Below, one piece after another: positions 22,110 through 54,325 of a DNA stretch of 64,000 nt (within the stretch, counting starts at the first letter, position 1; each line of letters begins with the position of its first letter). The stretch comes from Oribacterium sp. NK2B42. Its GTDB lineage: Bacteria; Bacillota; Clostridia; Lachnospirales; Lachnospiraceae. Below the pieces are notes generated by a model. That model saw only the letters and a list, made by a program, of their open reading frames with translations. It did no database searches and was not told the origin of the DNA. Made by a program: the position numbers and the translations under genes. The DNA is taken from positions 32,356-96,355 of the forward strand of contig NZ_KE384187.1 in NCBI RefSeq assembly GCF_000424445.1, given 5' to 3'.

Positions 22110-22153
22110 TCTACGGGGGACGGTTTTCGCCGAAGGGAACCGTCATCGGTGGA
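22110..22153. repeat. GGGACGGTTCTC palindrome family, diverged copy
   Basis: CTACGGGGGACGGTTTTCGC...GGGAACCGTC...GGTGGA is a decayed version of the palindromes at 47749, 50802 and 52840. Confidence 0.65.
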
Positions 22154-47748: not shown

Positions 47749-47796
47749 TATCTATCGTGGACGGTTCTCGCCGGCGAGAACCGTCCACGGTGGATA
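47749..47796. repeat. GGGACGGTTCTC palindrome family copy
   Basis: TATCGTGGACGGTTCTCGCC mirrors GGCGAGAACCGTCCACGGTG, a near-perfect palindrome directly after the PFK gene end. Confidence 0.85.
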
Positions 47797-50801: not shown

Positions 50802-50865
50802 AGCCGTGTTATCCACCGGGGACGGTTCTTGCCGGCGAGAACCGTCCCCGGTGGATAACACGGCT
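50802..50865. repeat. GGGACGGTTCTC palindrome family, longest copy
   Basis: AGCCGTGTTATCCACCGGGG pairs base for base with CCCCGGTGGATAACACGGCT, with GACGGTTCTTGCCGGCGAG between. About 64 bp, almost perfect. Confidence 0.92.
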
Positions 50866-51313: not shown

Positions 51314-51904
51314 GTGAAACAATATGAGGTTAAGGGCAACACAGTACGCTCTTTTGAAGTAGAAGATCGTGAAGCTTCAAAGAGTACTGTAGTTATCCAG
51401 CAGAGGGGAAGAAGAAACCAGCTTCATCTGTATCGTACGGAAAACGGTCAGATAAAGATGGAATATGACATTGATAAGAGCATAATCAAACCCGCATTGA
51501 GATGCATTCCGGATGCTATCATTGACAGGATTTGTTACGCAGCGCTCATCATTTCACTTTTGTTTATTTTTGGCAGCTGCTATCAATGCGTAGAGGTGGA
51601 TACATCAGTTGCAACCAGACTGGAGAGCATTGATCGTAAGCGCAGTGAATTAAACGAACTGAAATTGGCGAATGAAGCAGTTAAGTCAGCGATTGACAGT
51701 GCTGTTAATCCTGATCTTATCTATCGTGAGGCAACAGAGGTTTACGGAATGGTTCTTCCGACGGATTCCGAGATTATTACTTTTGAAAAGGAAAGCAGTA
51801 ATAAGGGATATGTTAGAACCTATGATACTATTCCCGCAGGTTACGAGAAGATCGAAAGCCCGGTAATTGTTCTGGCTAATGAATTGGCAAAGCTGATTGG
51901 ATGA
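51314..51904 (+). CDS. FtsL-like bitopic cell-division protein
   Basis: A 196-residue protein. A charged cytoplasmic part of about 70 residues is followed by one membrane segment (AALIISLLFIFGSCY, about 76-90), a heptad coiled coil (LESIDRKRSELNELKLANEA) and YREATEVYGMVLPTDSEII, the segment typical of FtsL/DivIC proteins. The GTG start follows AAGGGGAG. FtsL usually sits in the dcw cluster; here it is isolated. FtsL assignment is inference from architecture. Confidence 0.65.
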   Translation: MKQYEVKGNTVRSFEVEDREASKSTVVIQQRGRRNQLHLYRTENGQIKMEYDIDKSIIKPALRCIPDAIIDRICYAALIISLLFIFGSCYQCVEVDTSVATRLESIDRKRSELNELKLANEAVKSAIDSAVNPDLIYREATEVYGMVLPTDSEIITFEKESSNKGYVRTYDTIPAGYEKIESPVIVLANELAKLIG

Positions 51905-51925
51905 TAAAAGGATTTGTGTAAACCA

Positions 51926-51972
51926 TAAGCACATTGGGAGGATGGAACTATCCGAACTGATGTGCTTTTTGG
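51926..51972 (+). terminator. terminator after the FtsL-like gene
   Basis: AAGCACAT pairs with ATGTGCTT around a G/A-rich loop with GGA/TCC, followed by TTTTGG. A second AAAATCC/GGATTTTTT hairpin lies at 52022-52043. Confidence 0.75.
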
Positions 51973-52091
51973 TTGCCTCAGAAAGTGTATCGCAGGAGCC
52001 GCCCGGCTTTGAGCAGTTCAGCAAAAATCCGCAAGGATTTTTTCCTTGGTTGACAGCGGACAAAATAAAAAGAATTTCCGTAAAATAAAAC

Positions 52092-52120
52092 TTTACAAAA
52101 TGCGTTTTCGGTGTTAAAGT
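52092..52120 (+). promoter_or_regulatory. promoter of the candidate large ncRNA
   Basis: TTTACA (52092-52097), a 17-bp spacer and TAAAGT (52115-52120). The predicted start is about 52127. Confidence 0.5.
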
Positions 52121-52126
52121 AAGGAC

Positions 52127-52820
52127 AACAGAAAAAGAAAAGTCAACAGAAAAGTTCACCTGACGAGAAAGGGTGAAGGGCCGGTTGGCAAAAGTGCAGG
52201 AGATGGACCTGCGAAACTAAATTAAAGAAAGCAAGAGGTACAAAGACATGACACCAGATCAGTTAGTCACTAGTATCCTCTGGACCGCTTAAAAAGAAGA
52301 AGAACGTGAGAAGATCTCCGGACCGTACATCCGGGAGATGGTTCAAACCAATAGAGAAATGAATTTTCGGATTATTTCTTAATTAAAGTCCAGACGATAT
52401 TATTGCAAAGGGAGATCGACATAAGAATATACAGGAAGCTGTAAAGAAAGATTCTTGTAGAGAAAAAAGTTGAGTGGTTAATTTGAGGTCTTAAAAGGGA
52501 GACCGGATAAATAAAGATCCGGAAAATCTGATAAGAAGAATACTTAGAAGGATTCGAAGGATAAATTCAAGTAATAAAAACAGTCGATCTGATAATTGAA
52601 TATAGAGTCAAAACTGAATATTGAAATAATCTATTTATAGATGATATCCATAAGATATAATAATTATTATCGAAAAGATATTTATAGAATTTAAATAGAA
52701 ATCTAAGAAACGAGGTACAAACCGAAGTACAATTAAGTAAGGGGACGTAATACCGAGTCCCAGGGTCAAGTAAATAATATAGAATATAAAAGCTGTCGCG
52801 ACGCGGCAGCTTTTTTAGTG
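52127..52820 (+). ncRNA. candidate ~690-nt structured non-coding RNA (ROOL/GOLLD-like size class)
   Basis: No plausible protein gene on either strand for about 1 kb, but the sequence folds locally throughout. Helices I can pair: GTCAAC 52142/GTTGGC 52184 enclosing TTCACC 52155/GGTGAA 52172; GCAGG 52196/CCTGC 52208; TGGACC 52281/GGTTCA 52340 enclosing ATCTCCGGA 52314/TCCGGGAGAT 52330; GGTCT 52487/AGACC 52500; GGAT 52505/ATCC 52517; GGGAC 52742/GTCCC 52757; and a strong terminator. Loops are A-rich, as in large ornate RNAs. A 14-codon frame at 52249-52293 with AGAGGT upstream is the only candidate peptide. I cannot match it to a named Rfam family by eye. Confidence 0.6.
52788..52816 (+). terminator. 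terminator of the candidate ncRNA
   Basis: AAAGCTGTCGCG pairs with CGCGGCAGCTTT, followed by TTT. Confidence 0.9.
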
Positions 52821-52839
52821 CATAAGTCCGGTATCTGTC

Positions 52840-52892
52840 GGAAGACCACCGGGGACGGTTCTCGCTGGCGAGAACCGTCCCTGATGGTTTTC
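52840..52892. repeat. GGGACGGTTCTC palindrome family copy
   Basis: ACCACCGGGGACGGTTCTCG mirrors CGAGAACCGTCCCTGATGGT with two mismatches. It lies just after the ncRNA terminator and before the MATE gene end. Confidence 0.85.
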
Positions 52893-52927
52893 GAGAAGTA
52901 GTGCTTTGTCAGAGCAATTAGTAGGAC

Positions 52928-54325
52928 TCATAGGTTTTTATTATTCAATTCTCTCCTGACTTTCTTTATGACACTGAGATATGCTATGGCGGTGAATGCT
53001 CCGGCGGTGATCCAGGCTGCGGGATCGCAGAATACCGCAAGAGGAAAGCTCATGGTATGCATAGCTATAACAGCCACCACAAGTCGTGCAAAAAATTCAA
53101 CCACGCCACCCATCATAGGGAGGAAACCATGTCCGCAGCCCTGCATCGCGTTTCTGAAAATAAAGATGAAGCTGAGAGGGATGTAGAAAATGGTTACTAT
53201 GCGGATATAGGTGGTTGCCCAGGGCATCATAAGGGTTATGGTGTCAAGTGCAGCGGCTGTGCCCTGAGCCGCATCGGAAGCTGACCCTGAGCTTGCAAAG
53301 AACAATGTCATAACGGGTCTCAGCAGCAGGTTGCATCCGATGGCGCCTATGATGGAATAAATTATCTCAATGATCACAGAAGCACGGATTCCCTTGTTGA
53401 TTCTGTCGCTGTCTCCGTGACCGTAGTTCTGACCGCTGTAGGTTGCCATGGCCTGACCCATGGCTATCATCTCCTGAGTCATTACGCTGTGGAGCTTGTT
53501 GGCTGCGGTATAAGCTGCAACTGCAGTGGAGCCGAAAAGGTTGATGGCCGACTGCATTATCATGGTTCCGGAAGCGGTGATGGCAAACTGGAGGGCCATG
53601 GGGATGCCCACTGACATCTGGTGCTGGGTGTCAACTCTGTTTATTCGCCAGTCTCTTAATTCCGGCCAGAGAACATTAGCCTTAAAGCGAATGTAAAAAA
53701 GGCAAAGCAGAGCGGACAGTCCCTGGGAGATGTTTGTGGCCCAGGCAGCTCCGGCAACGCCCATCTTTCCTACTATAATAAAGAGGAGATCCAGGACAAC
53801 ATTGATACATGCGCTGAAAACAAGGAAATAAAGGGGCACACGGCTGTTTCCTATGGCTCTCAAAAATGCAGAAAAGAGATTGTAAAACACGCTTGCCACG
53901 GTTCCGAGACAAATGATGGTTATATAGGTCAGAGAATCATGGAAAATGTTTGAGGGCGTGTTCATCAGGTGCAGGAGTGGATTCATAAGTGAAACCGAAA
54001 GCAGGGTCACTGTAAGAATAACTATCATAGCAAGCAAGATTCCGTTGGCCACGCTTCGTTTTACCTTCCTGTAATTCTGGGCACCGAAGGCCTGGGCCGT
54101 AAGAACGGTGAAGCCGGTGCACAGTCCCTGGGAAAAGCCAAGGACCAGAAACATGATATTTCCGGTGGCACCCACGGCTGCCAGGGCATCCGAGCCTACG
54201 AAACGGCCTACTATGATGGTGTCTGCCATATTGTAAAGCTGCTGGAAGACATTTCCTATAAAAAGCGGGATCATAAATTTAAGTATAATAGGAAATGGAT
54301 TTCCTTTTGTCATATCTACTTCCAT
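52928..54325 (-). CDS. MATE family multidrug/metabolite efflux transporter
   Basis: A 465-residue 12-helix membrane antiporter. MTKGNPFPIILKFMIPLFIG, QQLYNMADTIIVGRFVGSDA and SQGLCTGFTVLTAQAFGAQN are typical of the DinF/NorM-like MATE fold in Firmicutes. Length is complete. The substrate cannot be told. AAAGGAGC precedes the ATG within the repeated leader. Confidence 0.93.
   Translation of the reverse strand: MEVDMTKGNPFPIILKFMIPLFIGNVFQQLYNMADTIIVGRFVGSDALAAVGATGNIMFLVLGFSQGLCTGFTVLTAQAFGAQNYRKVKRSVANGILLAMIVILTVTLLSVSLMNPLLHLMNTPSNIFHDSLTYITIICLGTVASVFYNLFSAFLRAIGNSRVPLYFLVFSACINVVLDLLFIIVGKMGVAGAAWATNISQGLSALLCLFYIRFKANVLWPELRDWRINRVDTQHQMSVGIPMALQFAITASGTMIMQSAINLFGSTAVAAYTAANKLHSVMTQEMIAMGQAMATYSGQNYGHGDSDRINKGIRASVIIEIIYSIIGAIGCNLLLRPVMTLFFASSGSASDAAQGTAAALDTITLMMPWATTYIRIVTIFYIPLSFIFIFRNAMQGCGHGFLPMMGGVVEFFARLVVAVIAMHTMSFPLAVFCDPAAWITAGAFTAIAYLSVIKKVRRELNNKNL

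Follow-up and report, generated by a model that had tools for sequence, protein, structure and literature searches.

RNAIII of Staphylococcus aureus combines a tiny ORF and long-range structure in one stand-alone molecule; this staphylococcal RNA is a base-pairing regulator that also encodes a tiny functional peptide. Bacteria have few large structured RNAs, and the functions of ROOL, GOLLD and OLE are presented as poorly understood in PMC12286853. The same paper characterizes GOLLD and OLE as large and elaborately structured, and ROOL as an RNA with a variable linker between conserved domains, known from phages and prophages and often encoded close to tRNA islands (PMC12286853). In the odc1 motif, the structure surrounds a ribosome-binding site and a short ORF (PMC8632094).

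Here we report an RNA of about 690 bases from Oribacterium sp. NK2B42; "the window" below is the whole stretch of 64,000 nt that was analysed. In layout, RNAIII is the closest to it; the Oribacterium RNA differs in having no Rfam match and no clear peptide selection. It is like ROOL (a model of 574 positions, one member of 659 nt) in being a large stand-alone bacterial RNA, rich in helices, whose conserved parts are separated by a variable linker; however, the Oribacterium RNA has no covariance match, a fixed chromosomal place, and a conserved ribosome-binding site and ORF. With GOLLD and OLE it shares the large size and elaborate structure, but neither gives an Rfam match in 51900-52930. As to odc1 and short-uORF leaders, odc1 precedes the gene that it controls, whereas the Oribacterium RNA ends at its own terminator.

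A description of the Oribacterium RNA was not found in the PMC literature, as judged by titles and abstract openings. Fragments of the family could be present in the tables of PMC8040213, because the candidate RNAs of that paper are 27-219 bp long. To all appearances, the structured RNA gene is real and previously uncatalogued.

Results

A conserved RNA gene that stands alone occupies 52092-52816 and consists of a promoter, about 690 nt of RNA and a terminator; it contains two covarying hairpins and a conserved start and reading frame (Table 1). The promoter-like boxes TTTACA-17-TAAAGT are located exactly where the initial annotation had placed them, and the promoter at 52092-52120 is sigma-70-like, with TG ahead of the -10 box. 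TTTACA is kept in all eight full-length copies of the alignment, while the -10 box reads TAAAGT in three of them and TATTAT, TATGAT or TATCAT in five. In seven homologues, the promoter stretch 52086-52126 is 61-100% identical vs 48-70% for the upstream spacer. A match to the promoter consensus alone proves little, because a pattern scan of 51900-52950 gives seven promoter-like sites, along with four terminator-like ones (2.2 and 0.8 in shuffles, respectively). The intrinsic terminator noted earlier is present as well.

Within the RNA there is a single complete ORF of at least 30 codons, which has 44 codons and is on the opposite strand (52635-52769). The MatE gene lies beyond the terminator on the opposite strand; a riboswitch or leader of the downstream gene was rejected on this ground, since the terminator precedes MatE. 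The fold of 52125-52816 as one strand has an energy of -155 kcal/mol vs -124 in shuffles (z -3.97; 0/20 shuffles as good). We infer from the sequence that the RNA is transcribed and its mini-ORF translated.

Table 1. Features of the RNA gene in window coordinates
Feature	Position	Strand	Basis
Promoter: -35 TTTACA 52092-52097, 17 nt, -10 TAAAGT 52115-52120, TG before -10	52092-52120	+	
RNA, ~690 nt, inferred start to terminator	52127-52816	+	homologues; start inferred from -10 box
Outer helix P1: GTCAAC 52142-52147 / GTTGGC 52184-52189	52142-52189	+	consensus fold
Hairpin P2, near-invariant GACGAGAAA loop: 52155-52161 / 52171-52177	52155-52177	+	covariation
Hairpin P3: TGCAGG / CCTGCG	52195-52213	+	one compensatory pair among 8 copies
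Ribosome-binding site AGAGGT	52234-52239	+	
Mini-ORF, 14 codons, MTPDQLVTSILWTA	52248-52292	+	
Long-range helix P4: ORF 52271-52277 and 52279-52285 with 52388-52394 and 52396-52402	52271-52402	+	
Hairpin, conserved loop CCGTACA	52314-52339	+	covariation, six distinct sequences
Hairpin GAGAAATGAAT / GGATTATTTCTT	52354-52380	+	consensus fold
Variable middle linker	52411-52529	+	largely absent from G003 copy
3' domain: TCTATTTA 52630-52637 / TAAATAGA 52692-52699, inner hairpins	52630-52699	+	consensus fold
Hairpin GGGAC / GTCCC	52742-52761	+	two compensatory pairs among 8 copies
Intrinsic terminator	52791-52816	+	stem letters differ, still pairs in several homologues (by eye)

BLASTN over 98 relatives, with the 17 genus genomes searched again, found the RNA in nine Oribacterium genomes including that of the window, and in eight it is full length between the same two genes. 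The other 16 genomes of the genus thus contribute eight copies: seven full-length homologues (77-97% identity), each with the same FtsL-like and MatE neighbours, and one partial copy (G003). The FtsL-like gene has no Pfam match and owes its name to the initial annotation; in G011, about 2.3 kb is added between the RNA and MatE. The RNA is better conserved than the adjoining FtsL-like gene: compared with the five distant full-length copies, each of the two RNA domains shows 82-87% identity vs 62-67% for that gene at the DNA level, with 48-59% for the spacer before the promoter and 54-57% for the middle linker. The G003 copy has a different genomic setting, lacks most of the linker (44 nt between two anchors vs 209-245 elsewhere) and matches part of the 3' end twice. 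Outside the genus, BLASTN matches of 24-64 nt in seven genomes looked like chance and were not counted, although one of these genomes, G051, has a copy elsewhere.

Two hairpins covary strongly. The P2 loop is near-invariant, with GAAGAGAAA in three rows, while the stem letters change freely. Among 17 distinct sequences, 96.6% of its cells are paired vs 72.8% in shuffles that preserve column make-up but not relatedness; six of the seven pairs are changed on both sides (15/500 shuffles reach this), no shuffle of 500 is as good on the other four of five measures, and slid registers are all far lower. For the hairpin with the CCGTACA loop, under the same kind of shuffling, the six distinct sequences give 97.2% paired cells vs 74.6% and five of six pairs changed on both sides; 0/500 shuffles are as good on three measures and 3/500 on a fourth, while the number of pair types does not exceed that in shuffles (253/500).

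The initial annotation had also drawn two nested pairs of helices. The first one, GTCAAC/GTTGGC around TTCACC/GGTGAA, is recovered in the consensus fold, and P1 seems, by eye, to be retained with other letters in the paralogues described below. In the second one, the inner hairpin ATCTCCGGA/TCCGGGAGAT was drawn correctly and covaries, but the outer helix TGGACC/GGTTCA is unsupported; in its place TCTGGAC 52279-52285 pairs with GTCCAGA 52388-52394. The 3' domain helix TCTATTTA/TAAATAGA is invariant in 8 copies, hence it yields no covariation signal. The remaining helices of the consensus fold have fewer compensatory pairs, some none, and several have breaking cells or low probability. The homologues in 8/16 other genomes of the genus, the covariation of two hairpins and the conserved synteny of the full-length copies support the original reading of the region as a large structured RNA.

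A diverged paralogue was found with R1, a covariance model of the 5' domain built from nine sequences; its E-values are rough. In the genome of the window, this second copy lies on contig C1 at 314884-315051, minus strand (E 9e-15); the second type is present in 17/17 Oribacterium genomes (weakest E 1.4e-4). The model gave 28 matches in the genus, of which 26 were kept, nine of the window type and 17 of the second type; the two matches that look coding, L059 (E 0.016) and L060 (E 0.011), were dropped before this count. Family matches in G037, G274, G295 and G375 were also dropped as coding or repeat sequence by eye. The sole match kept outside the genus, in G051, is the hairpin of a locus of the QYVSG type (see below) that was later used in building the model R2.

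Downstream of 14 of the 17 second-type loci, on the opposite strand, there is a homologue of one and the same protein, in L035 an M20 peptidase, presumably pepT; one of the three loci without the homologue is cut by a contig end. Rfam applied to the Oribacterium loci detects only a neighbouring SAM riboswitch, at 17 loci (16/17 second-type loci and the G003 copy). Near the 3' end of several second-type copies, a second RBS-like motif is visible by eye together with a start and a frame of only 2-4 codons (CCAATGTACTGA in L047, for example).

The 14-codon frame of the initial annotation exists and is conserved, although its coordinates are 52248-52292, one base off the 52249-52293 given there. 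A candidate ribosome-binding motif (GAGG, GGAG or AGGT) 5-12 nt upstream of the start and an ATG with an open frame of 12-19 codons are present in 26/26 Oribacterium copies; these are raw counts over related, not independent, copies that were found with a model spanning the RBS/ORF stretch itself. The variability of codons 2-5 by codon position is 0.099/0.099/0.148 in the window type and 0.217/0.308/0.328 in the pooled 26 copies, the third position being the highest in both; in the second type it is 0.261/0.282/0.261 with no third-position excess, and in codons 6-11 the excess is absent from either type. The codon positions thus carry no consistent peptide signal, and the peptide does not appear to be clearly selected. 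The dual function earlier suggested for this frame has support in the conserved start, RBS and frame, and in the related type described below in an in-frame spacing; no clear peptide selection was found.

The same ORF is a candidate strand of long-range helices. In P4, its second half pairs about 30-140 nt after the stop in 25/26 copies (241 nt in L048). The mean duplex energy over the 26 copies is -26.0 vs -20.5 with swapped partners and -19.4 with letter-shuffled partners, where the shuffles, as in all the duplex tests, preserve letters only, not dinucleotides. Whole-duplex energies were used because a simpler measure, the best 9-nt complement of the ORF without gaps, gave nearly the same value for own and swapped partners (8.08 vs 7.71). 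Among 20 representatives, z <= -2 in 17; the failures are the window copy (z -0.21; 36/100 shuffles as good), L008 and L048. Only in 8/20 representatives does the own partner beat all partners from other subgroups. Pairing of the ORF with the ribosome-binding site is matched by at most 10/200 shuffles in 14/26 copies, in some via a different stretch, and is borderline in the window copy (12/200). In most RBS-pairing copies, both helices share ORF bases and would therefore exclude each other. Both ORF-pairing energies are weak in the window copy, and few other copies have ORF helices as poor.

The assignment to the ROOL/GOLLD group was not borne out. In the whole window, Rfam finds three tRNAs only, the nearest about 10 kb from the RNA; in 51900-52930, a search with 4227 models at E up to 10 yields no believable match, no family reaches its cut-off, and GOLLD, OLE and RNAIII are not among the matches for the region. 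ROOL (RF03087) was rejected likewise, having no model match there at E up to 10; neither ROOL nor GOLLD is among the ten sub-threshold matches. Under strict filters, the ROOL model matches 0/17 genomes of the genus and 1/98 relatives, G041. The latter match (L027, G041:C66:53446-54012) is strong, 358 bits, and belongs to another genus of the same family.

Nor is the phage or prophage setting of ROOL encountered, the same two chromosomal neighbours being present in 7/7 full-length homologues; of the neighbouring genes, seven ORFs were covered by Pfam. BLASTN gave no match of the window copy to 50,697 phage records, and none of the L168 copy to the phage and plasmid collections; viral pattern scans returned 0, or five stretches without a stem or an R1 match. 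A phage or plasmid origin was rejected on these negative results.

Relatives beyond the genus were sought with a pattern of the hairpin loop, RBS and start codon in a collection of genomes described as covering 84,980 species. The pattern occurs in 93 stretches; among the 80 examined there are 12 loci of the Oribacterium type and three other clear ones, in Catenibacillus scindens DSM 106146, an uncultured Eubacteriales bin and Candidatus Scybalocola faecavium. Each of these three, termed here the Catenibacillus type, has two tandem copies, with the hairpin and a seven-codon ORF (MIEPVQQ) just before the terminator. By eye, the tandem copies of L134, L103 and L109 are followed by an apparent HlyC/CorC-type gene on the opposite strand.

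The bare hairpin 13-mer CTGACGAGAAAGG has 67 matches in 59 of 397 family genomes, with no visible excess over the reversed 13-mer used as a control, whose matches are untotalled; true copies are separated from bare matches only by the stem and co-location. The stem-bearing matches led to a third layout, the QYVSG type: a promoter, often the hairpin, GGAGGCTTAATCCATTGGAC or its variant with an ORF of 26-36 codons, and a terminator. R2, a sequence-only model of the QYVSG ORF module from 12 sequences, matches 68/397 family genomes and 58/334 genera at E <= 0.001; the 68 include the 12 that supplied the model, and the weakest matches are taken on E alone. It also matches 3/196 genomes of an order sample (one from the same family; the two others with E 3.6e-4 and 5.0e-4) and 1/199 of a phylum sample (E 6e-4). 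The order sample is no pure control, because it held same-family genomes without a match. R2 gives no match in Oribacterium. The hairpin and an R2 match are at most 1 kb apart in 17 cases, 12 of them in the model's own set and five independent; in one of the five the hairpin is downstream. R2 matches were considered only where they have a locus; the 29 QYVSG copies do not include L246, which was discarded because it lies at the end of its contig. Rfam on the Catenibacillus- and QYVSG-type loci finds nothing beyond spurious microRNA scores.

In the QYVSG type, 9 copies have 24 nt between the start and the QY core, 17 have 27 nt and 3 have 30 nt, so that the core is in frame in 29/29 copies, which are likewise related, not independent. 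Peptide selection is not seen: 15.5% of single-base differences are synonymous vs 20.1% at random, with three of 28 rows mis-anchored. Local partners were tested here, because pairing of the ORF with everything downstream does not exceed that in shuffles (11 copies: -23.9 vs -23.7, swapped -24.2). The RBS and the ORF end pair with a mean of -11.9 kcal/mol vs -6.5 in shuffles (29 copies), with at most 10/200 shuffles as good in 26/29; swapped partners pair almost equally (-10.6), because many copies share sequence. The pairing is kept through differing sequences, e.g., AGGCTTA/TAAGCCT and AGAGGTC/GACCTTT. A CCTCCGA-like element lies near the 3' end; it was located in 20 of the 28 copies examined, and all 20 (a raw count) have the long-range helix CGGAG/CTCCG or its variants CGAAG/CTTCG and TTCGGAG/CTCCGAA.

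The Oribacterium, Catenibacillus and QYVSG types are linked by the hairpin, the RBS with the mini-ORF, the layout and co-location, and not by an end-to-end alignment. Downstream of the QYVSG RNA, an MDKYEYRV-like gene start is found in 9/17 pattern-checked loci (L162, L172, L176, L177, L181, L192, L237, L238 and L239), and the protein of L181 matches TPR families. At L164 there is a relative that is shorter (by eye, about 300 nt) and has the hairpin, an GAGAGGTAGAGTCCAATGGACAAT start and a terminator.

Discussion

We believe, with a probability of roughly 0.6, that this is a stand-alone large structured RNA of Lachnospiraceae whose fold is coupled to the translation of its mini-ORF. Its two domains and the variable linker between them would be transcribed from the RNA's own promoter and closed by the intrinsic terminator. 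The theme that seems constant across the types is a mini-ORF serving at once as a reading frame and as a helix strand. Free of ribosomes, the ORF would pair with the downstream strand (P4) or with its own ribosome-binding site; a ribosome initiating and moving over it would have to open both helices, and therefore the fold would depend on translation. At least two folds of the RNA, set by translation, may thus exist. Since nothing lies downstream on the transcript, any effect would be in trans. Our guess at the output is that the ribosome-free fold is active, as a regulatory or scaffold RNA acting in trans. This two-fold model with its effect in trans is a reading of the anatomy of the RNA; the competition of helices in the cell and the translation-dependent switch are what we infer.

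It is tempting to extend the proposal to a family-wide class of translation-sensing Lachnospiraceae RNAs, in which the passage of a ribosome over 7-36 codons would pick one of two large folds and act in trans with no downstream gene; we hold this extension tentatively and would sooner expect it to fail than to stand.

Among other explanations, a dual-function regulator resembling RNAIII has the most to offer, and we nevertheless consider it unlikely. It would pair with target mRNAs and encode a tiny functional peptide, the structure only delaying the synthesis. A stand-alone RNA with a tiny ORF, its RBS and a large structured body agrees with it, and so does the third-position variability of codons 2-5 in the window type and the pooled copies; but the absence of that excess from codons 2-5 of the second type and from codons 6-11 of either type, together with a QYVSG synonymous share below random (0.155 vs 0.201, the mis-anchored rows included), speaks against a clearly selected peptide. 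The CCTCCGA-like 3' element of the QYVSG type could meet the ribosome-binding sites of other mRNAs; however, the CCTCC element sits paired in a helix wherever it was located.

An RNA-only scaffold or cage, self-assembling like ROOL, GOLLD and OLE, seems to us improbable. Its size would suit this, as would the A-rich joints, the conserved loops and the linker, which varies between two conserved domains as it does in ROOL (PMC12286853); the ROOL model and the phage and plasmid collections give no match, and conserved translation signals would be unexpected in a pure scaffold.

A plain mRNA that encodes a very small protein and has long, structured UTRs would explain the conserved start and frame, but most of the conserved sequence is outside the 45-nt ORF, a consistent protein-level signature was not found, and the Catenibacillus-type ORF stops after 7 codons just before the terminator; we give this explanation very little credence. 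Unselected intergenic DNA with chance hairpins, for which nothing speaks except that AT-rich sequence yields chance helices, has practically no chance against conservation above that of the FtsL-like gene, the covariation and a family member in 17/17 Oribacterium genomes.

If the fold is indeed coupled to translation of the mini-ORF, the RNA would be a stand-alone sensor of protein synthesis. The family is chromosomal and present throughout the sampled genus, with a related type in 58/334 sampled genera of one family; because it is chromosomal and widespread, deletion and probing in culturable strains should be possible.

A separate observation concerns a palindromic repeat on GGGACGGTTCTC, located at 47758-47787, 50819-50848 and 52852-52881 (and 22117-22128), with seven matches at no more than one mismatch in the window vs 0.25 expected. 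Its appearance is that of a small repeat dispersed among intergenic regions; one copy follows the terminator of the RNA, and a similar palindrome adjoins, by eye, the paralogue in L035.
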